DNA of 64,000 nt, from NCBI GenBank assembly GCA_945890715.1, contig CAMDCX010000003.1, forward strand, positions 34,705 through 98,704, given 5' to 3'. This stretch comes from PVC group bacterium. Lineage in GTDB: Bacteria > Verrucomicrobiota > Kiritimatiellia > CAIKKV01 > CAITUY01. Under the pieces are notes generated by a model. That model was not told where the DNA came from. It did not search any database and saw only the letters and a program-made list of their open reading frames with translations. The translations under genes and the position numbers were made by a program. Of this stretch, positions 35,214 through 64,000 are shown one piece after another (position 1 is the stretch's first letter; every line of letters begins with the position of its first letter).

Positions 35214-35216
35214 CTG

Positions 35217-35292
35217 GTAGGGCGGCCAGGCTCTGGCCGCCGCGGCGCGCAAGGGCCCTTCGGCAAGCTCAGGGGAGCCCTGCGCGCCCTAC
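35217..35292. repeat. Palindromic REP-like doublet between convergent genes
   Basis: Ends GTAGGGCG.../...CGCCCTAC; inner hairpin GGCGGCCA-ggctc-TGGCCGCC; second imperfect hairpin GCGCGCaaGGGC...GCCCTGCGCGC. Confidence 0.75.
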
Positions 35293-36482
35293 CTGACATA
35301 ACAGGGCGGAGGAGAGATAGGGGTATCGCGGTATTGGCCGGGAGAGCCGGGAAGATTCGACTCGGCGGCTTTCACCAGATTGTGCATTTCGCGGGCGGTC
35401 ACATAGTGAAGCTGCCAGTGATGTCCGTCATTAAACTCCCGCTGTAAGGTTTCGTGCATAGCCCGCATCGGGGAGCCCAGAAGCACCCTGGTATTACCCG
35501 GCACACAACCATGAGTGTGAAGCTTTACAAACACCCAGTCAGGTCGTCCCTTCACCCCGATCTGCTGACGTGCCCACAACCGGACCCGATCCGCTGTCGG
35601 CAAATTCGCCCCTGAAATATCGGCATTTTCCAGTCGCGGCAAAATCCCCCATTTGCGACGCCGCCAGTTAAGGGCCAAAGGGCCGGTGATGAGCATCAAT
35701 GGAACAGTTGTTGAGCTGCCCCGTTGTTGGGTTGTTGAGCAAGAACTCAGAGAGTCCTGCGAACTTTCATTTAACAACCCAGCAACCCGACAACTTGACA
35801 ACTTTCCTTTATCTGCCCCGCGCGGCTGGCCGGGCACATCTTTTGCATAGTAAATCGCATTCACCATCTTCGGCTGTGTTGGCGACGGAGCAGACGGAAA
35901 GGTGAAATCCGCATAGCAACCTGTTTCCGCGAGGATTCCGAGTTCCTCATTCACTCCGCACCAGTCCCCATCCGGCCGCGAGTTGCACAACGACCAGTTG
36001 CCATGGATAAAGGCGTAGCGAATAGAGGGGTCACCCTGAACCCTGAACCCTGCCCCCCTTTTCTCTTCCCCCAACAGCCCGTGTTTTTCATGTAATAGAT
36101 CGCGGAACGCTACCAGCTTTCCCTGAAACCCCTCGGCGGTATCGTGTCGGTGATGGAGGTGAATTTCGACCTCACCAAACCCGCGCCGACAAAAGGCGGC
36201 GAGGGAGTCGAGAATAGTCGCATCATACTCCTCCTGCGGATAAAAAAAGGTGTGGCGCGGGGGAAGACCTTCGGAATCACGATAAGAGTCAACCGATCCC
36301 GGATAAGCCGCGAGCCAATCGTGCACCGTCTGGCGGGCGGCAGCCACATCGACGCCATCACGAAACGGCTCGTAATGGTCGCACACACAGACGACTAGGT
36401 GGCGGATACCAGTGACCGGGCCAGGGCGAGCCAAAAGTGACCGAAGGTAACCCGGAAACCACTTATCGATGGCTTTAAACAT
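35289..36482 (-). CDS. Putative polysaccharide deacetylase-like protein carrying two repeat-derived insertions
   Basis: HLVVCVCDHYEPFRDGV..., EIHLHHRHDT, YAFIHGNWSLCNSRPDG; interruptions GKLSSCRVAGLLNESSQDSLSSCSTTQQRGSSTT and GAGFRVQG correspond to repeat DNA. Confidence 0.55.
   Translation of the reverse strand: MFKAIDKWFPGYLRSLLARPGPVTGIRHLVVCVCDHYEPFRDGVDVAAARQTVHDWLAAYPGSVDSYRDSEGLPPRHTFFYPQEEYDATILDSLAAFCRRGFGEVEIHLHHRHDTAEGFQGKLVAFRDLLHEKHGLLGEEKRGAGFRVQGDPSIRYAFIHGNWSLCNSRPDGDWCGVNEELGILAETGCYADFTFPSAPSPTQPKMVNAIYYAKDVPGQPRGADKGKLSSCRVAGLLNESSQDSLSSCSTTQQRGSSTTVPLMLITGPLALNWRRRKWGILPRLENADISGANLPTADRVRLWARQQIGVKGRPDWVFVKLHTHGCVPGNTRVLLGSPMRAMHETLQREFNDGHHWQLHYVTAREMHNLVKAAESNLPGSPGQYRDTPISPPPCYVR
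35704..35803. repeat. Inverted arrays of CAAC-type octamers inside the 35289-36482 CDS
   Basis: gttgttgagctgccccgttgttgggttgttgagc ... ttaacaacccagcaacccgacaacttgacaac. Confidence 0.7.
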
Positions 36483-41755: not shown

Positions 41756-42493
41756 CTACGCTTTTCCCAAATTTCCACAATTTCTTTCCGCAGTCGAATC
41801 CAATTTGGAGTGCGGCGGCTTGACGCCGCTTTGTTCTTGCGCGGCTTGACGCGCTGGGTTGAAGGGGGACAAAAGCCCGCAAGGAACAGAGCCCGTCAAG
41901 CCGGGCTCTTGGAAAGCGGCGTCAAGCCGCCGCACTCCAAAACGCGGGGAGACACACTCCGGTTGAGTTTCTGAGAAATAGTGTGCCTGAAAAGCAGGAA
42001 CATTTCCTGCTTGCTCCTCAATTTTCTCCCTCCCCAGCAACAACCCAGGCCTACGGGCACCATAAAGCAATACAACCTTATTAGGGTGCTGGGGGGTTAA
42101 TCCCTCTATGAACGCCTGAAAGGCGGTAATCCTGGTTCCCCCGGCAATCAGGACAGCATCTGTCCCACCATCAACCACAAACTCACCATAAGGAAGCTTG
42201 ACCCACACTGATTTACCAACGCACAATTCCGCCTCCATGCGAGCGGTATACTTTCCTTTCACTGAGTAAATAAGGGTGAGAGCACTTCGATCCGCAGGAG
42301 AGGACGCAATCGAAAACACCCGGGACTCCGGCCAGAACCCCGAGGGATCATACTCGTCCAGCGTCAAGTGTAGGAATTGCCCGGGGAGGAAAGCAGGAAC
42401 AGCCCGCTCGGGCTTGAGCGCAACCGTATAAACCCGGTCACCGTGATTTGCGACTTGCTCAACAATACATCTGATTTTCCTGGGTGTGCTCAT
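41756..42493 (-). CDS. Flavin/NAD oxidoreductase (FNR-like), likely truncated and decaying; C-terminus runs into a palindromic repeat
   Basis: FLPGQFLHLTLDEYDPSGFWPESRVFSIASSP; NAD motif reads AGGTRITAF; last ~65 aa are repeat-derived plus read-through. Confidence 0.6.
   Translation of the reverse strand: MSTPRKIRCIVEQVANHGDRVYTVALKPERAVPAFLPGQFLHLTLDEYDPSGFWPESRVFSIASSPADRSALTLIYSVKGKYTARMEAELCVGKSVWVKLPYGEFVVDGGTDAVLIAGGTRITAFQAFIEGLTPQHPNKVVLLYGARRPGLLLGREKIEEQAGNVPAFQAHYFSETQPECVSPRFGVRRLDAAFQEPGLTGSVPCGLLSPFNPARQAAQEQSGVKPPHSKLDSTAERNCGNLGKA
41805..41940. repeat. Four-hairpin inverted repeat with 28-bp perfect terminal arms
   Basis: TTGGAGTGCGGCGGCTTGACGCCGCTTT at both ends in inverted orientation; internal hairpins with loops GCTTGA, GCTTGA, TCAAGC, TCAAGC. 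Confidence 0.9.
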
Positions 42494-42507: not shown

Positions 42508-44391
42508 GTAGAGTAGAGATGCCCGCTTGCGCGGGCATCCCCCTCGTCAAACCGGACGTGCAGATTTCCCGCATCCGGCTTTCCATAAGAAAATTTTGTT
42601 TCACAAGAGGCGTTCACAAGACAGTCAATCCCAGTTTGATGAGTTGCTGATGGTAGCCCAGACCTCCGGGCAGTTTATATTTCCGCTGGCTTCGACGATT
42701 GAGATGCCGGATTAGGCGTTCTTTGACATAGCAATTTATGTTCCGAAACGCCTGCCGGGGATACCCGTGCCCGTAATAGTTCGACCATCCTCGCAGTTGG
42801 CGATTGATCCTTTCTATTAGTTCCGGAATCGGTGTACAGCACTGCCGTTTATCCGTCATGGCTTTCAGCTTTACCCTTTCGCGTTTGATCGCTTTGGGCG
42901 AAGGTGAGACATTCAGATATTTCCAAGGCCGCCCTTGCAGGTCCCGGTAATACCTGAGTCCATACCCCAGAAAGTCGAGCCTTTGCCCTTCTTCCTTGAG
43001 GTTCACACAGCGCGTTTTCTCCCTGTTTATCCTCAGCCCCATCCATCCTTCCAGCTTTTCCTCGATGAACGCTTTGAGCGTATCAGGAAGTTCTCTAGTC
43101 AGGATGACAAAGTCGTCCGCGTACCTGACAATGCCGGCTGCTAGGTGTCCTCGTTTGAGTTCCTTTAGCAGCACCACCTCAAACCAATGCAGGTAGAGGT
43201 TGGCCAATAGTGGCGAAATCACGCCACCTTGCGGGGTTCCCTTGTCGTTCCGCGTCACTTTCGGGGGCTTCCCTTTCTCCGTCGCGTCTACCACCGGAGC
43301 TTTCAGCCACTGACGAATTAGCCGCAGCACACTCCCATCCACGATCCTCATCCGCAGACACTCTATGAGCTTGTCGTGCGGAATTGAATCGAAGTAGCCA
43401 GAGAGGTCTGCGTCATAGATTTCGTTCTTCCCGTCTTTCAGATGCCCTTGAATGGATCGTATCGCGTCCTGTGCCGACCGCCCTGGCCGATAACCATAGG
43501 AACAGTCGTTGAAGTCTGCCTCAAATATCGGCTCGATAATGAGTTTGACCGCCATTTGCACAACCCGATCTTTAATGGTCGGGATGCCTAATGGCCGCAA
43601 CTTTCCATTCTCTTTCTCAATGTACACCCTACGAACAGGCTTGGCTCTATAGGTCTTCTCCTTCAGCTCCTTTTCCAGCTCGCCAAGAAAGCGTTCAACC
43701 CCGCCTTCCTGCTGTTCAATCTGTTCGAATGTCACTCGATCCACACCGGGCGCACCTTTATTCCGGCGAACCAGTTTCCAGGCCCACTTCAATGTATCCG
43801 GATGAGTGACCAGACTGTACAGGCTGTAAAACCGATACTTCTTCTCCTGCTTTGCCTTTTCGCTTAGCGTCTGTCTCCACGCAACGAGTTTCAGGGGCAT
43901 TCCGGGCTCCGTTATTATCGGCTCCCAGTCATCCCAATATTCTGTCGTAGATGTTTCCATCCATCAGCCCTTTGCGTCTTCTGACTTAGCTTTTCTTATG
44001 CAGAGGCCCTTCGCTCCACGGTCGTTACCCGCTTCATCACTACTACGGCCTCCTCCGCATCCGCCGTTGTTGTCCGGCGGGTTTTCCCAAGTTCCTGGCA
44101 GAACTGTCCGGGCGCGCTATCCTTCTCTACCCCGTCGTGTGCCGTCCGGCTCATTCCCGTTCTTTGTTGGACAGCTTCTGGTTTCAGACTCTTCGACATC
44201 CTGACCACACGAAATTGGCGTCACGAGGCTTAAACAAAGGTTCACTTGCGTTATGGCTCACCCGTTTGCAGACATGAAGCTTCATCCGGTTAGTTGCCCT
44301 TCCAAATGTCCATGCTGCTACTCATCTACGGTCATTTCATGAGACAAACACCTTTCAGTTTGTTAGTTCTGCCAAGCTTTGCTTGGCGCAC
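42508..44391 (-). mobile_element. Group II intron (about 1.9 kb) with encoded reverse transcriptase/maturase
   Basis: 5' end GTGCGCCAAGCAAAGCTTGGCAG; domain V-like AAGCCGGATGCGGGAAATCTGCACGTCCGGTTTG; 3' end ...CATCTCTACTCTAC; ORF inside. Confidence 0.85.
42614..43960 (-). CDS. ltrA: Group II intron reverse transcriptase/maturase (no HNH domain seen)
   Basis: [81 protein letters not shown]. Confidence 0.95.
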
Positions 44392-48117: not shown

Positions 48118-48400
48118 GATTTACCACGGAGTCGACGGAGGGCTGAGAGAGAGGAAAACGAAAAGAAGAAAATGTTGCGGCATTTGTATGCGGCGAGTAC
48201 ACCGCATAAAAATGCCGCAACACCGTTCCTGGAGAAGAGGAGAGGGTTTCAATAGTGCGAAGCACTTTTATTAATGCTTCTCGAATTTTCCTTCCAGAGA
48301 GGCGTTGCGCGATTTTTTCAAATGGAGTACTCACCATTTGAAAAAATCGTGCAACATTTCTTTCTCTCTCCCATTCCCCTCCGAGTCTCCGTGGTAAATC
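48118..48400. repeat. ~280-bp two-hairpin element, copy 1
   Basis: Ends GATTTACCACGGAG.../...CTCCGTGGTAAATC; hairpins 48174-48221 and 48304-48355. Confidence 0.92.
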
Positions 48401-49156: not shown

Positions 49157-49434
49157 GATTTACCACGGAGAGGCGGAGGGTTGCGAGAGAGAAAGACGAA
49201 AAAAGAAAATGTTGCGGCATTTGTATGCGGTGAGTACTCCGCATACAAATGCCGCAACACCATTCTGGAGAAGAGGAGAGGGTTTTAATAGTGCGAGACA
49301 ATACTTATGCTCTTCGGATTTTCCTTCCGGAGAGGTGTTGCGCGATTTTTTCAAATGGAGTACTCACCATTTGAAAAAATCGCACAACATTTTCTTCTCT
49401 CCCTCATCCCCCTCCGCCTCTCCGTGGTATAATC
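49157..49434. repeat. ~280-bp two-hairpin element, copy 2
   Basis: GATTTACCACGGAGAGGCGGAGGG.../...CCCCCTCCGCCTCTCCGTGGTATAATC; hairpins 49211-49258 and 49337-49388. Confidence 0.92.
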
Positions 49435-51359: not shown

Positions 51360-51947
51360 ATGCAACTGATTTTGGCTTCACAATCCAAGGGACGGGCGGC
51401 CTTGTTAAAGGCGGCAGGCTACCGATTCCGGCAAATTCCATCCCGAATCGAGGAACCGCCACCACCTGAAGGAGCTCCTCTGGAACAATATGTTCTGGAG
51501 CTCGCCATTCTGAAGGCCAAGGCCATTGCTGAAAAGCATCCCAACGCCATCGTCATCGGGGCCGATACCGCCCTGATACTTGGCCGGAATGTAATCGGGA
51601 AACCCGGCACTCTGGCCGCCGCCCGCCGGATGCTCGCCTTACTGGGCGGACGGAAACACCTCATCAGCAGCGCAGTATGCATCATTTTCCCGAAACGTAC
51701 CCCGGGCGGGAAAAGCCGGATTCTGAAAGTCGTGGATACCGCCCAGGTCACTTTGCGAAAATGGTCCCCCGCCCGCATCCAGATGCATGTGGCCTTAACC
51801 CGCCCGCTCTCCTGGGCTGGCGCCTACGCCGTTCAGGATCCCTTCTCCGCCGCAATTGTTGAGCGGATTGATGGAGACCTCGCCACTGTTATAGGACTAC
51901 CGTGGGCAAAGTTGGAGAAAGTACTCAGAAGTCAGTATTCAGAATAA
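51360..51947 (+). CDS. maf: Maf-family nucleotide pyrophosphatase
   Basis: [42 protein letters not shown]; start after AAAGGAG; last residues lie in a heptamer repeat. Confidence 0.93.
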
Positions 51948-52018
51948 AGCAAAAAGGCATGAAGCGTTGCCACTCCATGCCCTCCATTCTGAATTCTGGA
52001 TTCTGACTCCTGAATTCT
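51921..52018. repeat. Inverted heptamer arrays (TCAGAAT/TCAGAAG type) flanking a central hairpin
   Basis: gtactcagaagtcagtattcagaat ... ggcatg...ccatgcc ... attctgaattctggattctgactcctgaattct. Confidence 0.75.
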
Positions 52019-52025
52019 CCCCTCC

Positions 52026-53270
52026 TTACACCCTCTTCAGCAACAGCGACGCATTATGTCCGCCGAAGCCGAGGGAGTTGTTCAGACAGGCGCGAATCTG
52101 GAACTGGCGGGTCTGGTTCGGCACATAATCCAGATCGCACTCGGGATCCGGCGTCGTATAGTTCCATGTTCCAGGCACCACGCCCGTATGAATCGCCATC
52201 GCGCAAACCACGGTCTCCAACCCGCCCGCCGCACCCAGAAGGTGGCCGGTCACCGACTTGGTGGAGCTGACCATGACCTTCTTCGACTGTTCGCCGAGTG
52301 CCAGTTTCACGGCAGCCGTCTCGTTCTTGTCGTTAAGCGGGGTGCTGGTGCCGTGGGCATTGACATAATCAATCTGGTCCGGCGTCAGTTTCGCATCCGC
52401 AATCGCCTTGGACATGGCGCGCGCCGCGCCCTCGCCACCGGGTGCCGGGGCCGTAATATGGCTGGCATCGCAAGTGGCTCCATAGCCACTGACTTCGGCG
52501 TAAATCCTGGCCCCGCGTTTGACCGCGTGCTCATATTCCTCAAGAACGACAATGCCAGCGCCTTCGCCCATGATAAACCCGTCGCGATCCAGGTCAAACG
52601 GCCGGCTGGCATGCGTCGGGTCGTCATTCCGGGTGCTCATCGCCTTCATCGCCGAAAATCCGGCAATCCCCAGTGGACAGACAACAGCCTCGGTTCCGCC
52701 CGCCACCATGATGTCGGCATCACCATACTGGATCTGGCGTGTCGCGTCACCAATCGCATGGGTTCCGCTCGCACAGGCCGTCACCACACAGGTATTGGGG
52801 CCTTTCAGACCGTGCTCAATGGCCACCATACCGGAGGCCATATTGACAATCATCATCGGAATCATGAACGGGGAGTTGCGATCCGGACCGCGGTTCAACA
52901 GAACCGAGTGCTGATCCTCCATCGTGATCAATCCGCCGACACCCGACCCGATCATGCAACCCGCGCGGTTCGCATCCTCATTGGCAAATTGAATGCCAGA
53001 ATCCTGAACAGCCAGCTTGGACGCTGCCACAGCATAGTGACAGAACGGATCCATCCGGCGCTGTTCTTTTTTAGGAATATACTTGTCGATCTCAAATTCA
53101 ATCACTTCGCCGGCAATCTGAGTGGCCATGGCGGAAGCGTCGAATCGTGTGATGCGGCGAATGCCGGACGTCCCGCTCAGGAGCCTCTGCCAGAAGACAG
53201 TGAGATCACATCCCAGCGGCGACACCACACCCAAACCCGTAATAACAACTCTGCGTTTTTCCATAGCCAT
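52026..53270 (-). CDS. fabF: Beta-ketoacyl-ACP synthase II
   Basis: RRVVITGLGVVSPLG, VTACASGTHAIGDA, NAHGTSTPLND; start refined. Confidence 0.97.
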   Translation of the reverse strand: MAMEKRRVVITGLGVVSPLGCDLTVFWQRLLSGTSGIRRITRFDASAMATQIAGEVIEFEIDKYIPKKEQRRMDPFCHYAVAASKLAVQDSGIQFANEDANRAGCMIGSGVGGLITMEDQHSVLLNRGPDRNSPFMIPMMIVNMASGMVAIEHGLKGPNTCVVTACASGTHAIGDATRQIQYGDADIMVAGGTEAVVCPLGIAGFSAMKAMSTRNDDPTHASRPFDLDRDGFIMGEGAGIVVLEEYEHAVKRGARIYAEVSGYGATCDASHITAPAPGGEGAARAMSKAIADAKLTPDQIDYVNAHGTSTPLNDKNETAAVKLALGEQSKKVMVSSTKSVTGHLLGAAGGLETVVCAMAIHTGVVPGTWNYTTPDPECDLDYVPNQTRQFQIRACLNNSLGFGGHNASLLLKRV

Positions 53271-55360: not shown

Positions 55361-55385
55361 GATATCAGCTCCTTATTTCGAAGTC

Positions 55386-55450
55386 CGAATTCAGAAGTCA
55401 GGAGTCAGAATGAGAAATTCTGAATTCTGTCTCCTGACTTCTGACTCCTA
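55386..55450. repeat. Inverted heptamer arrays between fabD and fabH
   Basis: gaattcagaagtcaggagtcagaat gagaa attctgaattctgtctcctgacttctgactcc. Confidence 0.75.
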
Positions 55451-56446
55451 TAGTCTCACCACCATCGCACCCCAGGTGAATCCGCCCCCAAAGGCAACCA
55501 GAACAATGTTGTCACCCTTCTTGACCCGCCCCTGCTGAATGGCTTCATCCAACGCAACGGGAATCGAGGCGGCGGACATGTTTCCATACTTATCGAGATT
55601 GATGAAAAACTTTTCCGGCCCCACGCCCAACCGATCCCGAATGGCTTCAACAATCCGCATATTCGCCTGATGTGGCACCACGCAGGCCACATCGGCAATG
55701 GTCAGCCCGGCCTTCTCCAGAGCCTTCCTGGCCGCCTCGCCCATGGCACGAACGGCATGCTTGAACACTTCCTTGCCCTCCATTTTCATGAAGTGCATGC
55801 GCTTCTCGATCGTCTGTGCAGACACCGGATGCCGACTCCCGCCACCGGGAATGTTCAACAGGGCATTCAACGTTCCATCCGAACCCGTCACGGTCGAGAG
55901 AATGCCCTCGCCCGAGTCGCGAGCCTGCAACACCACCGCGCCGGCGCCATCCCCGAACAGAACACAGGTTGTGCGATCCTGCCAGTCGGTCACCGTGCTC
56001 AATTTTTCCGCCCCGATCACCAGCGCCGTCTTGAAACGCCCGGTCAACAGGTACTGATTGGCGGCATCCACGGCAAATAGGAACCCCGCGCAGGCCGCTT
56101 CAAGCCCGATACAGGTCGCGTTTTTGGCGCCAATCAATTTCTGAACAAAACAGGCCGTGTTGGGAAACGGCATATCGGGGCTTAACGTGGCCACAATGAT
56201 CAAATCCACGTCCTCGGGCTTGAGTGCGGCCTTGGCCAGAGCCCGTTTCGCCGCCTCGGCACCCAGATCGGAGGTCGCTTGATCCTCGCGGGCAATGCGC
56301 CGTTCCCGGATTCCGCTCCGGCTGACAATCCATTCATCGGTGGTATCCACCATCTTTTCAAGTTCGGCATTGGTCAGAATCCGCTCCGGGAGATAGGATC
56401 CGATTCCCACAATGGCCACGTGTCGATTCGGTTGGGTTGTACTCAT
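55448..56446 (-). CDS. fabH: Beta-ketoacyl-ACP synthase III
   Basis: GIGSYLPERILTNAELEKMVDTTDEWI, ATCIGLEAACAGFLFAVD. Confidence 0.97.
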   Translation of the reverse strand: MSTTQPNRHVAIVGIGSYLPERILTNAELEKMVDTTDEWIVSRSGIRERRIAREDQATSDLGAEAAKRALAKAALKPEDVDLIIVATLSPDMPFPNTACFVQKLIGAKNATCIGLEAACAGFLFAVDAANQYLLTGRFKTALVIGAEKLSTVTDWQDRTTCVLFGDGAGAVVLQARDSGEGILSTVTGSDGTLNALLNIPGGGSRHPVSAQTIEKRMHFMKMEGKEVFKHAVRAMGEAARKALEKAGLTIADVACVVPHQANMRIVEAIRDRLGVGPEKFFINLDKYGNMSAASIPVALDEAIQQGRVKKGDNIVLVAFGGGFTWGAMVVRL

Positions 56447-58127: not shown

Positions 58128-58296
58128 TGACGCCTTGGCGCCTTGGCGCCTAGGCGCCTAGTATTCAGAAGTCAGAATTCAGAAGTCAGAATTCAGAATT
58201 CAGGAGTCAGGAGTCAGAATAAGAAAAACGACTCTATTCTGAATTCTTACTCCTGAATTCTGACTCCTGAATTCTGACTCCTGACTCCTGAATACT
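58128..58296. repeat. GCCTTGGC/GCCTAGGC octamers followed by inverted heptamer arrays
   Basis: cgccttggcgccttggcgcctaggcgcctag, then tattcagaagtcagaattcag...ggagtcagaat / attctgaattcttactcctgaattctgactcc... Confidence 0.85.
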
Positions 58297-58765
58297 TCTT
58301 TTCAATGAACTTCTTCACCGACGGCGGCACGAATTGGCTGATATCCCCGCCCCGGTCGGAAATTTCGCGGACTGTGCTGGAACTGATATAACTGTGCGTT
58401 TCCTTGGGCATCAGGAAAATCATCTCGATTTCCGGCGCCAGCTTCCGGTTTGCCAGCGCCATCTGAAACTCATATTCGAAGTCCGAAAACGCCCGAAGCC
58501 CGCGCAGCAGGACATGAATTTTCTTTGATCGGGCATAATTCACCAGAAGCCCATTGAAGGAATCCACTTTGACGTTCTTCAGGGACTTCACGGAGGATTT
58601 GACCATTTCAATCCGCTCTTCCGCGCTGAAAAAGGTTTTTTTCCGGGAGTTCACCCCCACCGCCACCACCACATGATCAAATATATGCGAGGCCCGCTCG
58701 ATCAGATCAAGATGCCCCGAAGTCAAGGGATCAAAGGATCCGGGATATATCGCCGAATGTCTCAT
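58247..58765 (-). CDS. coaD: Phosphopantetheine adenylyltransferase with repeat-encoded C-terminal tail
   Basis: MRHSAIYPGSFDPLTSGHLDLIERASHIFDHVVVAV; start refined (GGAGAAGACAGC-ATG); tail KKYSGVRSQNSGVRIQE. Confidence 0.95.
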   Translation of the reverse strand: MRHSAIYPGSFDPLTSGHLDLIERASHIFDHVVVAVGVNSRKKTFFSAEERIEMVKSSVKSLKNVKVDSFNGLLVNYARSKKIHVLLRGLRAFSDFEYEFQMALANRKLAPEIEMIFLMPKETHSYISSSTVREISDRGGDISQFVPPSVKKFIEKKYSGVRSQNSGVRIQE

Positions 58766-58800
58766 GCTGTCTTCTCCTAACCCGGCATCGCCGGAACAAA

Positions 58801-58897
58801 AATCATAATCGTAATCGTAATCATAATCGTAATCCTTTTTCTTCAGCCCCATGCAAGCCAGAGGAGATTACGATTACGATTATGATTACGATTATGA
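58801..58897. repeat. Inverted hexamer arrays (GTAATC/ATAATC and GATTAC/GATTAT)
   Basis: aatcataatcgtaatcgtaatcataatcgtaatc ... gattacgattacgattatgattacgattat. Confidence 0.85.
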
Positions 58898-59630: not shown

Positions 59631-59910
59631 GATTTACCACGGAGAGAAGAAAAGAGAGAATGTTGCGGGTATTTAAGCTGCGGAGTACCGCACCTGAAAT
59701 TCCCGCAACCCTTTCTGGAGTAATTCGCTGAGCCCATCGACATGCTCAGGGCAAGCGAGAAGAGACTCATCAGCACACAACACATCTCATCCCTCTCTGG
59801 TCTTCCTCCAAGAGGGATGGCGTTTATTTTGGCCACGGTATTCCCGTGGACGAAATAAACGCCACATTGCATCTTCTCTCTCTGAAGTCTCCGTATCTCC
59901 GTGGTAAATC
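59631..59910. repeat. ~280-bp two-hairpin element, copy 3 (diverged stems)
   Basis: GATTTACCACGGAGA.../...TCTCCGTGGTAAATC; hairpins 59662-59709 and about 59819-59863. Confidence 0.85.
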
Positions 59911-60311: not shown

Positions 60312-60410
60312 TCACCACCCCCGATGTAACAAAATACTAACCGATTCGTCCGAAAAGTGCCAGAATTTCCAAAATTTTCAGAGTTTACTAACGTTCTCCT
60401 AATAATCCAG

Positions 60411-60496
60411 ACATCCACTGGTGGACGCCGACCTCCGGGCGGCGTCAAACCGCGCCCGGAGGTCGCGGTCCACCTTCGAGGATGTTTAGATTATTC
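60411..60496. repeat. Two-hairpin palindromic element with complementary 9-nt loops
   Basis: GACGCCG-ACCTCCGGG-CGGCGTC (60424-60446), ACCGCG-CCCGGAGGT-CGCGGT (60449-60469); outer AATAATCcagACATCC / GGATGTttaGATTATT. Confidence 0.92.
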
Positions 60497-60511
60497 CATG
60501 AATGTCATCAA

Positions 60512-62812
60512 CTACGCCCCCAATGACGCAAAGGGATTTGAATTGAATGCCGGGCGGGCTGCAGGACGTGGACCGGCTGAAGGGCCACGCCGTTCACCGG
60601 GTTTTCCGCCACCCCCACCCCCGCCGCCAGGCCGCCCCGGCCCTTTGGCACTCAGGGCAATCCGCTTGCGGGGAATGTCCACATCTATCACCCAGACCTT
60701 GACGCGATCCCCCGTCTGAACCACTTCCGCAGGGTCGGTGATATATTTTTCCGACAGCGCGGAGACGTGCACCAATCCGTCCTGATGCACCCCGATATCC
60801 ACAAACGCGCCAAAAGCCGTCACATTGGTGACAATCCCCATCAGTTCCATACCGGGCTTCAAATCCTCCATCGTGTTGACATCATCCCGGAAACACGGCG
60901 CTTCAAATGTCTCGCGGGGATCCCTGCCCGGCTTTTTCAACTCGGCAATAATGTCCTTGAGCGTAGGCTCTCCCACTTCGGCACTGACATATTTCCGGAT
61001 GTCAATTTTGTCGGCCAGTTCCTTGCTCCCGACAAGATCCTTCAGATCAACCCCCACATCCTTTGCCATCTTCTCAACCAGGGCGTACCGCTCCGGGTGT
61101 ACCGCCGAAGCATCCAGGGGATGATCCCCGCTACGAAGCCTCAGGAAACCCGCCGCCTGCTCAAAGGCCTTTGGACCAAGACTGGACACCTTGAGCAGGC
61201 CCGCCCGACTCGTGAACGCCCCCGTCTTGTCACGGTGCGAAACGATTTTCTTGGCCAGACTGTTGCCAATCCCGGACACCCGCGCCAGCAGGAAGGCGCT
61301 AGCCGTGTTGAGTTCCACGCCCACATGGTTCACGCAACTGACCACCACATCCTCCAGCTTCTGGGCCAACAGGGGCTGGTGCACATCATGCTGGTACTGC
61401 CCCACCCCAATGGACTTGGGATCAAGTTTCACCAGTTCAGCCAGCGGATCCTGAAGACGACGTCCGATTGAAATCGCGCCGCGTACTGTCAGATCCAAAT
61501 CCGGAAATTCATCGCGAGCCACTTCGGAAGCACTATAGATGCTGGCGCCGGATTCGTTGACCTGGATCACCATGACGTTCTTGATGTTGGCCTTCTTCAG
61601 GGTGTCCCGGATAAACCCCTCTGTCTCCCGTCCGCCGGTCCCATTTCCAACCGCAATTGCGGCGGGCTGGCACTTGGCAATCAGTTTGGCAAGGTCAATG
61701 CGCGCTTCCATTTCAGAGCGGTCACCCTGGCTGAGGTACAATGTTGTATTGGCCAGAAACTTGCCCGTCGCATCCAGCGCCGCCACCTTGCAGCCGGTAC
61801 GGATTCCGGGATCCACCGCAATCACCGCCCGTCCACCCAACGGCGCCGCCAGCAGAAGACTGCGCAGGTTCTTGGCAAAGATTTCCACCGCCGCCCGGTC
61901 GGCCTTCATCTTCAGGTCGACGGACACATCGGTCTCGACGCTCGGCGCAATCAGCCGCTTATAGCTGTCCTCGAGCGCCGTGCGCAGATGAATGGCGAAC
62001 GGGGACCGATCGTTGACCTTCATCAGCTCACACATCCGCTTGAGAATGGGATCGACGTCAACCGTGAAGGAGCGCTTCAGGACTCCTTCGTTTTCCCCAC
62101 GGCGGATAGCCAGATAGCGATGCGAGGGAATATCAACCGCCTTCTCCTTGAAATCATAATACTGCTCGAACTTGGTCGGTTCCTTTGTGGCGTCCTTGAC
62201 CGCCTCGGATACCACGACGCCGTTGGCGGCGAAATACTGGCGAGCAAAAGCCCGGATTTCGGCATTTTCAGACGCCAGTTCGGCCACGATATCACGGGCA
62301 CCTGACAGGGCATCCTCAACCGATTCCACTTTCTTCTCTGCATCGACAAACGCCTTCGCCGCCTCGTCAGGATGTCCCGACACTGGCTGCTGAAGAATCA
62401 TAGCCGCCAGCGGTTCCAGCCCCTTCTCCCGGGCGATCATGGCGCGCGTCCGGCGCTTCGGCTTGAACGGCAAATACAAATCTTCCAGCGCATTTTTTGT
62501 AGTGCAGGCCAGAATCTTCGCCTTGAGGTCATCGGTCAGTTTCCCCTGCTCCCCGATGGAGGCCAGGATGGTGGTTCGCCGCTCCTCAAGATCCTTGTAG
62601 TATTCGAGACGCTCCTGAATCTTCCCGATTTGAACTTCGTCCAGATTCTCAGTCACTTCCTTGCGGTACCGGGCGATAAAGGGAATGGTACTCCCCTCAA
62701 AAAGCAATTTGGCCACCGCCAGAACCTGACGGGGCGCAATATTCAATTCGGCGGCAAGGCGCGGAATGGACGAGGCATCAAGCGATTCATTTTGATCAAT
62801 CTCAGCAACCAT
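60512..62812 (-). CDS. tex: Tex-family S1 RNA-binding transcription accessory protein
   Basis: ALEDLYLPFKPKRRTRAMIAREKGLEPLA, AVDPGIRTGCKVAALD, SIGVGQYQHDV, C-terminal S1 domain; Gly/Pro-rich tail. Confidence 0.95.
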   Translation of the reverse strand: MVAEIDQNESLDASSIPRLAAELNIAPRQVLAVAKLLFEGSTIPFIARYRKEVTENLDEVQIGKIQERLEYYKDLEERRTTILASIGEQGKLTDDLKAKILACTTKNALEDLYLPFKPKRRTRAMIAREKGLEPLAAMILQQPVSGHPDEAAKAFVDAEKKVESVEDALSGARDIVAELASENAEIRAFARQYFAANGVVVSEAVKDATKEPTKFEQYYDFKEKAVDIPSHRYLAIRRGENEGVLKRSFTVDVDPILKRMCELMKVNDRSPFAIHLRTALEDSYKRLIAPSVETDVSVDLKMKADRAAVEIFAKNLRSLLLAAPLGGRAVIAVDPGIRTGCKVAALDATGKFLANTTLYLSQGDRSEMEARIDLAKLIAKCQPAAIAVGNGTGGRETEGFIRDTLKKANIKNVMVIQVNESGASIYSASEVARDEFPDLDLTVRGAISIGRRLQDPLAELVKLDPKSIGVGQYQHDVHQPLLAQKLEDVVVSCVNHVGVELNTASAFLLARVSGIGNSLAKKIVSHRDKTGAFTSRAGLLKVSSLGPKAFEQAAGFLRLRSGDHPLDASAVHPERYALVEKMAKDVGVDLKDLVGSKELADKIDIRKYVSAEVGEPTLKDIIAELKKPGRDPRETFEAPCFRDDVNTMEDLKPGMELMGIVTNVTAFGAFVDIGVHQDGLVHVSALSEKYITDPAEVVQTGDRVKVWVIDVDIPRKRIALSAKGPGRPGGGGGGGGKPGERRGPSAGPRPAARPAFNSNPFASLGA

Positions 62813-62875
62813 GAAGTGTCTCCCGAAAAAGGGGGGCATTTTACAGATTTGTGGCAGGAAGAAAGGAAAAAGTAA

Positions 62876-64000
62876 TCACCGCAACGACAAGGATGCCATC
62901 GTCGTGGCATAAATGCGGCCGCCAGCGGAACCCCAGCGGTCGTCGGGTTTCCAGCTTCCGGTGTCGGCTCCGTGCTTATCCTGCCGGGAAAGGAGATCGT
63001 GGCGAAGTGCGACCAAGCCCCGGCGCGCAGACTCCTCATCTATTTTCTTAAGGGCCGAAGCCAGGAAATACCGACGGTAATAATCCATATCGGCACCGGG
63101 ATTGGTGGCCAAACCCTGCATCCGGGCCTTAATGGCCTGACGCCGTCCAGGCGAGACAAGTCCACTATGGGCGAGATCCAGAAAGCTCATGGCGCCCATA
63201 GCCGAGAGAGTTTGCGAGGTGCCGCCAGATGTGTCGCCTCTCGCCTGGTAGCCAAATGAACCGTCATCCGACGCCACACCCGCCATCCAACGGAAGCCGC
63301 GCTCCAGGTTCGGCCGAACTTGCGGCCAACCCTGGGCTGCGGCGAGGCGCAACGCCTCAAGCTGCCATAAGGTGACGGAGAGGTTTGAGGCGGGACGCGC
63401 TTCCTGATGATACCCCCAGCCACCATCGGCATATTGGCGAGAACAGATTGCTGACACCGCCCGATCGAGGGCAAGCCGCAGCGTTTCGTCCTGACGCATC
63501 TCATACGCTTTCGCCAGCGCCAGAGTGGCAATGCCGTGGTTATAGGGTGCACCGGAGAAGGATTCACCGAACTGGCCATCTTTCTGCTGACACCGGATCA
63601 GATAAGCAATCGCCTTGTCGATGGACGGCTTTGCAGAAGACTGGCTCGACTCTACAATCGTCAGCAAGGAAAGCCCGGTCAGCGCCACTTCAAAATGCTT
63701 GTCGCCACCCCACCGCACGGTACTCCAGGACCCATCCGGCTCCTGGGTATGACAGAGCCACGCGATCGCCTGCTGGCCAGGATCAGCAGCTGTTATTCTC
63801 ATCATCCACAAACCGCCCAGCAATAACGTCACGGCCGCCGCCAAGGGAATTACAAGACGCCAGACTGAACGATTCCCCTGTAGTAACCGGCGTGTCGCCG
63901 GTATACGCACAGGAAAGATGCCGCCGACACGGCGGCTACTACAGGAAGTCAACAGGGTTTCCGTCCTCACCCTCGCCAGAATTTCCGGCGCCAGATCATG
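62876..64000 (-). CDS. Membrane-anchored prenyltransferase/squalene-oxidase-repeat (terpenoid-cyclase-like) protein, N-terminus beyond right edge
   Basis: Repeats such as AIAWLCHTQEPDGSWS, AIAYLIRCQQKDGQFGES, AVSAICSRQYADGGWGY; frame open to the window end. Confidence 0.78.
   Translation of the reverse strand, partial: HDLAPEILARVRTETLLTSCSSRRVGGIFPVRIPATRRLLQGNRSVWRLVIPLAAAVTLLLGGLWMMRITAADPGQQAIAWLCHTQEPDGSWSTVRWGGDKHFEVALTGLSLLTIVESSQSSAKPSIDKAIAYLIRCQQKDGQFGESFSGAPYNHGIATLALAKAYEMRQDETLRLALDRAVSAICSRQYADGGWGYHQEARPASNLSVTLWQLEALRLAAAQGWPQVRPNLERGFRWMAGVASDDGSFGYQARGDTSGGTSQTLSAMGAMSFLDLAHSGLVSPGRRQAIKARMQGLATNPGADMDYYRRYFLASALKKIDEESARRGLVALRHDLLSRQDKHGADTGSWKPDDRWGSAGGRIYATTMASLSLR
63877..63945. 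repeat. 69-bp two-hairpin REP-like doublet inside the prenyltransferase-repeat CDS
   Basis: CCTGTAGTA-[ACCGGCG TGT CGCCGGT]-...-[GCCGCCG ACA CGGCGGC]-TACTACAGG. Confidence 0.9.

Follow-up and report, generated by a model that had tools for sequence, protein, structure and literature searches.

A probable REPIN of a RAYT-linked repeat family inside a larger palindromic element downstream of tex in a PVC group bacterium

The hairpin pair between the PilZ gene and tex

The window is the whole stretch of DNA that was analyzed, 64,000 nucleotides from a PVC group bacterium of the class Kiritimatiellia. A PilZ gene (PF07238; 59925-60311) and the Tex gene (60512-62839) lie on its reverse strand, and the interval that separates them harbors two adjacent hairpins whose 9-nt loops, ACCTCCGGG (60431-60439) and CCCGGAGGT (60455-60463), are perfect reverse complements. 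The first hairpin belongs to a 27-nt unit on the forward strand, unit A (GGTGGACGCCGACCTCCGGGCGGCGTC; 60420-60446), which consists of a GGTG head, the 5′ stem arm GACGCCG (60424-60430), the loop ACCTCCGGG, and the 3′ stem arm CGGCGTC (60440-60446). The second belongs to unit B (GGTGGACCGCGACCTCCGGGCGCGGTT; 60448-60474), an inverted unit on the reverse strand that also carries a GGTG head and the loop ACCTCCGGG, and that reads on the window strand as ACCGCG (60449-60454), CCCGGAGGT, and CGCGGT (60464-60469). The stem of B is GACCGCG/CGCGGTC in the family as a whole and GACCGCG/CGCGGTT in the window copy. The two units have their first seven bases and the loop in common and differ in their stems; the loops are reverse-complementary because one loop sequence is present twice in opposite orientation.

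A single base (60447) separates the two 27-mers, a spacing identical in all 55-nt copies, and two bases lie between the 3′ stem arm of A, CGGCGTC, and the ACCGCG of B. The pair as a whole (60420-60474, forward strand) is an A-B heterodimer with its heads pointing outward. It is flanked by AATAATC (60401-60407) and GATTATT (60489-60495), which bound a long imperfect hairpin on the forward strand (60401-60495). The 121-nt stretch folds as RNA with a minimum free energy of -63.3 kcal/mol, compared with -32.2 ± 3.3 for shuffled sequences (z = -9.4), and none of 200 shuffles was as stable; unit A alone, as single-stranded DNA, folds at -11.1 kcal/mol with an A-G mismatch and a triloop. The hairpin pair is not due to chance, given this fold z-score and the presence of the unit at more than 20 further places in the same genome. 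An Rfam search of the window at the gathering threshold returned no match at the site.

The original prediction, made from the letters of the window, described the two adjacent hairpins with exact complementary loops between the PilZ gene and tex, inside AATAATC...GATTATT, and the sequence is exactly as described at that place. It set the element at 60411-60496, which is correct as to place and too narrow as to extent: the conserved sequence spans about 60385-60511 and reaches the tex stop codon.

A dispersed family of A/B doublets

The genome that contains the window is a 2.1-Mb MAG of 89.5% completeness. It yielded 47 BLAST matches, which were parsed into 24 doublets: eleven of the 55-nt form seen in the window, seven of 61 nt in which an unrelated hairpin (TTCCCGCCACGGCGGGA) takes the place of the B hairpin, four of 82 nt in which about 28 nt separate the units, and two, of 102 and 130 nt, that carry insertions. 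Each of the 24 is classed as one A and one B unit, and neither this genome nor the same-genus genomes showed an A/A or B/B doublet. A/B repeats occur in three of the five same-genus genomes (G001, G003, and G005); exact matches are absent from the other two (G002 and G004), one of which, G004, holds a single diverged copy (L242). In other Verrucomicrobiota, the head and loop are kept and the stems differ (GGC, GCG, ACGCG, and so on); the doublets there are heterodimers and sometimes homodimers, the latter mostly with longer spacers.

These repeats have several of the properties by which REPs and REPINs are recognized. They are short palindromes in many copies (27-nt hairpins in 24 doublets of the MAG), and the GGTG/GTGG head beside the stem, almost invariant among the doublets, is a near variant of the 5′ GTAG tetranucleotide and not canonical GTAG. 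Two such REPs stand in inverted orientation and are able to form one hairpin. Five copies (L030, L070, L106, L123, and L026) have a further palindromic sequence within the REP loop, at GACCT^CCGGG; in three copies it is a 48-nt sequence, TGCTACTCTGCGAAG...GCACGAG. The REP loops look like targets for insertion.

Local hairpins, long hairpin, and the loop-loop contact

Pairing within the stems was examined in 96 distinct units picked by head and loop alone, the head being a selection criterion. An average of 5.56 of seven stem positions pair in these units, compared with 4.19 ± 0.10 when the 3′ arms are shuffled, a comparison that overstates significance as the units are related. Among 16 distinct 55-nt copies, three pairs of the local stems have changed on both sides (1.0 in shuffles), with six compensatory cells (1.4 in shuffles); a change from C-G to U-A in B is one example. 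The local hairpins with compensatory stems that had been proposed from the single copy are thus supported by covariation in both sets.

The proposed kissing contact is not supported. A structured RNA that regulates tex or pilZ and in which two local hairpins kiss over 9 bp would account for loops that are exactly complementary and stems that vary by compensation. The nine loop-loop pairs, however, have no compensatory change, and all loop variants are one-sided. In the MAG, the B position holds an unrelated hairpin in the seven 61-nt copies and in the 102-nt copy, which makes seven to eight copies whose B loop is unrelated; at two pairs of orthologous loci (L025 and L073, L019 and L086), one lineage has the normal B and the other has the 61-nt form. 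The loops therefore change independently of each other, the very outcome that had been named as speaking against the contact. Folding also disfavors the device: as RNA, the core forms a long hairpin at -46.4 kcal/mol versus -27.0 for the two local hairpins, a preference of about 19 kcal/mol as free RNA and about 7 as single-stranded DNA, and the loop-loop pairs are the central part of that long hairpin, which itself has no covariation. The copies are also scattered over the genome beside unrelated sequence, and the element is missing from the tex-pilZ junction of a close relative. On all these counts, a regulatory kissing RNA is extremely improbable.

RAYT transposases among the repeats

Two relatives in the genus encode a RAYT among A/B REPINs of this family. 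These are P0002 in G001 (L159, 1417-1914; 165 aa) and P0001 in G003 (L115, 149-664; 171 aa), which are 72% identical. Both match Y1_Tnp, and both match REP_Tyr_transpos at scores (71.7 and 62.9 bits) below the curated cutoff of 80 bits. The sole PDB match of P0002 is the E. coli TnpA-REP structure 4er8 (E = 8.6e-7); the alignment covers the HxH and YIxxNPV regions. RAYTs of 50-52% identity from other families (G022 and G042) have flanking GGTGG units whose loops resemble ACCTCCGGG and whose stems are different but paired. The rule for the loop is not absolute, as two homologues of similar identity in G004 have nearby GTGG-headed hairpins with differing loops. GTAG units with other loops, likewise in pairs of unlike stems, flank the more distant homologues (about 36-42% identity).

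A search of the 89.5%-complete MAG itself found no close relative of the cognate RAYT, and the only good RAYT there (L034; 83 bits) has none of these REPs beside it; present activity in this genome is therefore only putative, and the RAYT association is one of the lineage, at L159 and L115. Two other candidates were set aside. A gene of 289 aa between two REPINs on contig C101 of G005 is a different gene and not a RAYT, and a Y1_Tnp locus of the MAG (C38) has no REPs nearby.

The outer palindrome and its interiors

The REPIN core sits in the middle of a composite palindrome of about 127 nt (60385-60511). On the forward strand, the left outer arm (TTACTAACGTTCTCCTAATAATCCAGACATCCACT; 60385-60419) matches the arm consensus at 29 of 30 positions and recurs in other copies around unrelated interiors. 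The right outer arm (60475-60511, forward strand), a degenerate TTGGAGGATGTCCAGATTATTTCAGGAACGTTAGTAA, matches at 22 of 30 positions and ends at the tex stop codon. Compact copies across genomes have conserved flanks of about 36 nt on each side in two main variants, and the inverted terminal arms (TTAYTAAYGTTC...) match at 20-30 of 30 positions in 28 copies. The spaced A/B form of 82-83 nt has no conserved flanks.

A similarity search with the arms alone revealed that they also surround other interiors. G000 and G002 have another pair of hairpins there, with TTATCA-like loops, and G004 has diverged forms of it; in G003 the interior is a GTAG REPIN, and L239 holds a third kind. Whatever the interior, most arm-bearing copies have a total length of 127-130 nt. 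The GTAG interior is also found free-standing many times in G003, where matches often end at the GGTAG/CTACC heads, and two copies adjoin another RAYT. ORFs were listed around nine unpaired arms. When outer elements standing alone around a short center were sought by strict pattern, no convincing case emerged.

Comparison with relatives reveals loci without the element. An alignment of window positions 60328-60553 with contig C40 of G005 shows that a segment of about 124 nt (60392-60515, forward strand) is missing as a unit from the orthologous tex-pilZ junction, so that the gap takes the arms and the core together. Comparable empty sites exist for copies L009, L012, and L145, with no clear target-site duplication in the empty-site alignments; the tex loci of G001, G002, and G004 were excluded as empty sites because the sequence downstream of tex was unalignable. 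Each empty site may also reflect excision in the relatives instead of insertion here. The moving unit of the compact form is the 127-nt composite. The spaced doublet moves as a unit of its own: in G005, an 83-nt A/B REPIN (L133; C40, 3467-3549) lies in frame in a squalene-hopene-cyclase-like gene, to which it adds 84 nt, or 28 codons, and the window orthologue of this gene (62876-63970) lacks it. The A/B REPIN thus occurs both alone and inside the larger unit.

The same evidence bears on two further readings of the site. A plain MITE, that is, a palindrome with terminal inverted repeats that depends on a DD(E/D)-type transposase and in which the REP-like hairpins are incidental, would fit arms conserved at about 127 nt, the unrelated interiors between them, and the absence of the whole unit from relatives. 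It is nevertheless unlikely, as the A/B pair exists without arms as an 82-83-nt unit, one copy of which is the in-frame insertion, and as the pair surrounds a RAYT in two genomes; among the loci examined, no arm-flanked transposase was found, and the arms flank no Y1_Tnp locus there. The MITE reading may be true for the outer arms only.

An intrinsic terminator or 3′-end stabilizer of the tex transcript is suggested by a strong hairpin directly 3′ of the tex stop codon, and REPs elsewhere can act on transcript ends. A terminator scan, however, found no terminator-like site and the hairpin has no T-run, the element is missing downstream of tex in G005, and the repeat is dispersed; this origin is therefore highly unlikely. 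There is no sign that the element has a conserved role for tex or pilZ: it is absent there in a close relative, is dispersed, and has no terminator tail. Effects on the end of the tex transcript are possible, with terminator action as a side effect.

Proposed mode of action

We put at about 0.87 the probability that the site is not a kissing-loop RNA device but a REPIN, composed of the inverted REPs A and B of one RAYT-linked family, within a larger palindrome. By homology to the systems of E. coli and Stenotrophomonas, the A/B pair would be mobilized, now or formerly, by a RAYT. The enzyme would act on single-stranded DNA and recognize two features there, the head at the 5′ end (GGTG/GTGG) and the loop, ACCTCCGGG, which contains an A-G mismatch. 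A paired stem would be required and a particular stem sequence would not. In the biochemical work on such systems (PMC8266576), the GTAG tetranucleotide is essential; in both group 3 systems that were tested, the loop bases are critical and stem swaps are mild in effect. The simplest account here would be a RAYT for which head and loop are the signal and any paired stem suffices. Recognition of this kind would keep the loops identical, and reverse-complementary after inversion, while the stems change by compensation; the inversion of the units would then yield complementary loops and swapped stems, with no need for a loop-loop contact.

A and B always have unlike stems, so that no doublet forms a perfect palindrome. 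An inverted pair of A units would form a perfect hairpin of 26 bp, with a calculated energy of -40.9 kcal/mol as single-stranded DNA, versus -27.0 for A/B. These energies are consistent with, and no proof of, the idea that A pairs with B because perfect palindromes are avoided. In Di Nocera et al. (2013; PMC3733652), heterodimers are preferred in many REP families, and protection from SbcCD cleavage of perfect hairpins is suggested. The strict A/B pairing bears on a question posed in that paper, namely why REP dimers avoid perfect palindromes.

At the window locus, the REPIN is nested centrally in the element of about 127 nt, and the whole composite would have inserted downstream of tex, the REPINs having been captured by the outer element. 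More generally, and only tentatively, the arms can be viewed as a mobile palindromic scaffold of near-constant length (127-130 nt) that carries centrally interchangeable REPINs, or REPIN-like hairpin pairs, of different RAYT lineages. If so, REPINs hitch-hike on, or are captured by, a second mobile element, and exchange of cassettes and loops in place would explain why orthologous copies differ inside.

Relation to known REP and REPIN families

The closest parallels are the GTAG-superfamily REP dimers of Opitutus terrae and others. Di Nocera et al. (2013; PMC3733652) describe verrucomicrobial REPs with GTGG-variant heads in GTAG-20, dimers with 1-2 bp between partners in GTAG-17, preferred heterodimers with unlike stems, insertions inside genes, and association with RAYTs. 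Compared with that text, the window family combines one loop with many stem variants and one RAYT clade, and it is nested in a common outer palindrome with interchangeable interiors; the comparison with the O. terrae families is by description, not by sequence identity.

In Pseudomonas fluorescens SBW25 (Bertels and Rainey 2011; PMC3116915), an inverted REP doublet is likewise the replicating unit, and its REPINs are extragenic, are predicted to form a long hairpin, and lie near RAYT genes. The GI doublets of SBW25 have a spacer, with 71 bp between the first residues of the invariant 16-mers, whereas the compact form in the window has one base between its units and travels with outer arms of about 36 nt. 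The BIMEs of E. coli, which comprise y and z REPs and are served by TnpA-REP (4er8; PMC8266576), resemble the window family in their inverted pairs of different REP types, their hairpin mismatch, and an HUH transposase related to P0002. The E. coli loops tolerate change (PMC8266576), whereas the loop is the most constant part of the window family, in likeness to the group 3 systems of Stenotrophomonas and Marinomonas (PMC8266576).

GTGG-headed REPs, close-set dimers, heterodimers, and intragenic copies are thus already known from PMC3733652, as are mobile doublets from PMC3116915. What is new is that the REPIN lies within a shared palindromic scaffold whose interiors are exchangeable, an arrangement for which a limited literature search found no description; the literature that combines REPIN and Verrucomicrobia gave nothing relevant. 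With its many stems, one head, one loop, and a RAYT clade, the family amounts to a natural mutagenesis experiment on what the transposase reads. A scaffold whose interiors can be exchanged would give REPINs a means of spreading that is, to our knowledge, undescribed.

Other repeats in the window

The window harbors a second REPIN (35216-35293) of the GTAG kind found in scaffold interiors of G003 (GGTAGGGCGGCC...GCGCGCCCTACC), with an CTTCGGCAAGCTCAGGGG-like sequence inserted in one loop. Another palindrome, ATGTTGCGG...CCGCAACA, is present three times (48162-48228, 49199-49265, and 59650-59716), with CTCCGTGGTAAATCT-type sequence nearby. A large inverted repeat, TTTGGAGTGCGGCGGCTTGACGCCGC..., at 41804-41941 has arms of 57 nt that are 82% complementary. 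Inverted arrays of 14-nt GAATTCAGGAGTCAG-like units lie at 58160-58296 and also at 51914-52035 and 55380-55459, and an inverted repeat of AATCGTAATC units (58803-58897) encodes the DYDYDYDYD start of the ORF at 58247-58852. Positions 42508-42583 match a group II intron at 50.1 bits.
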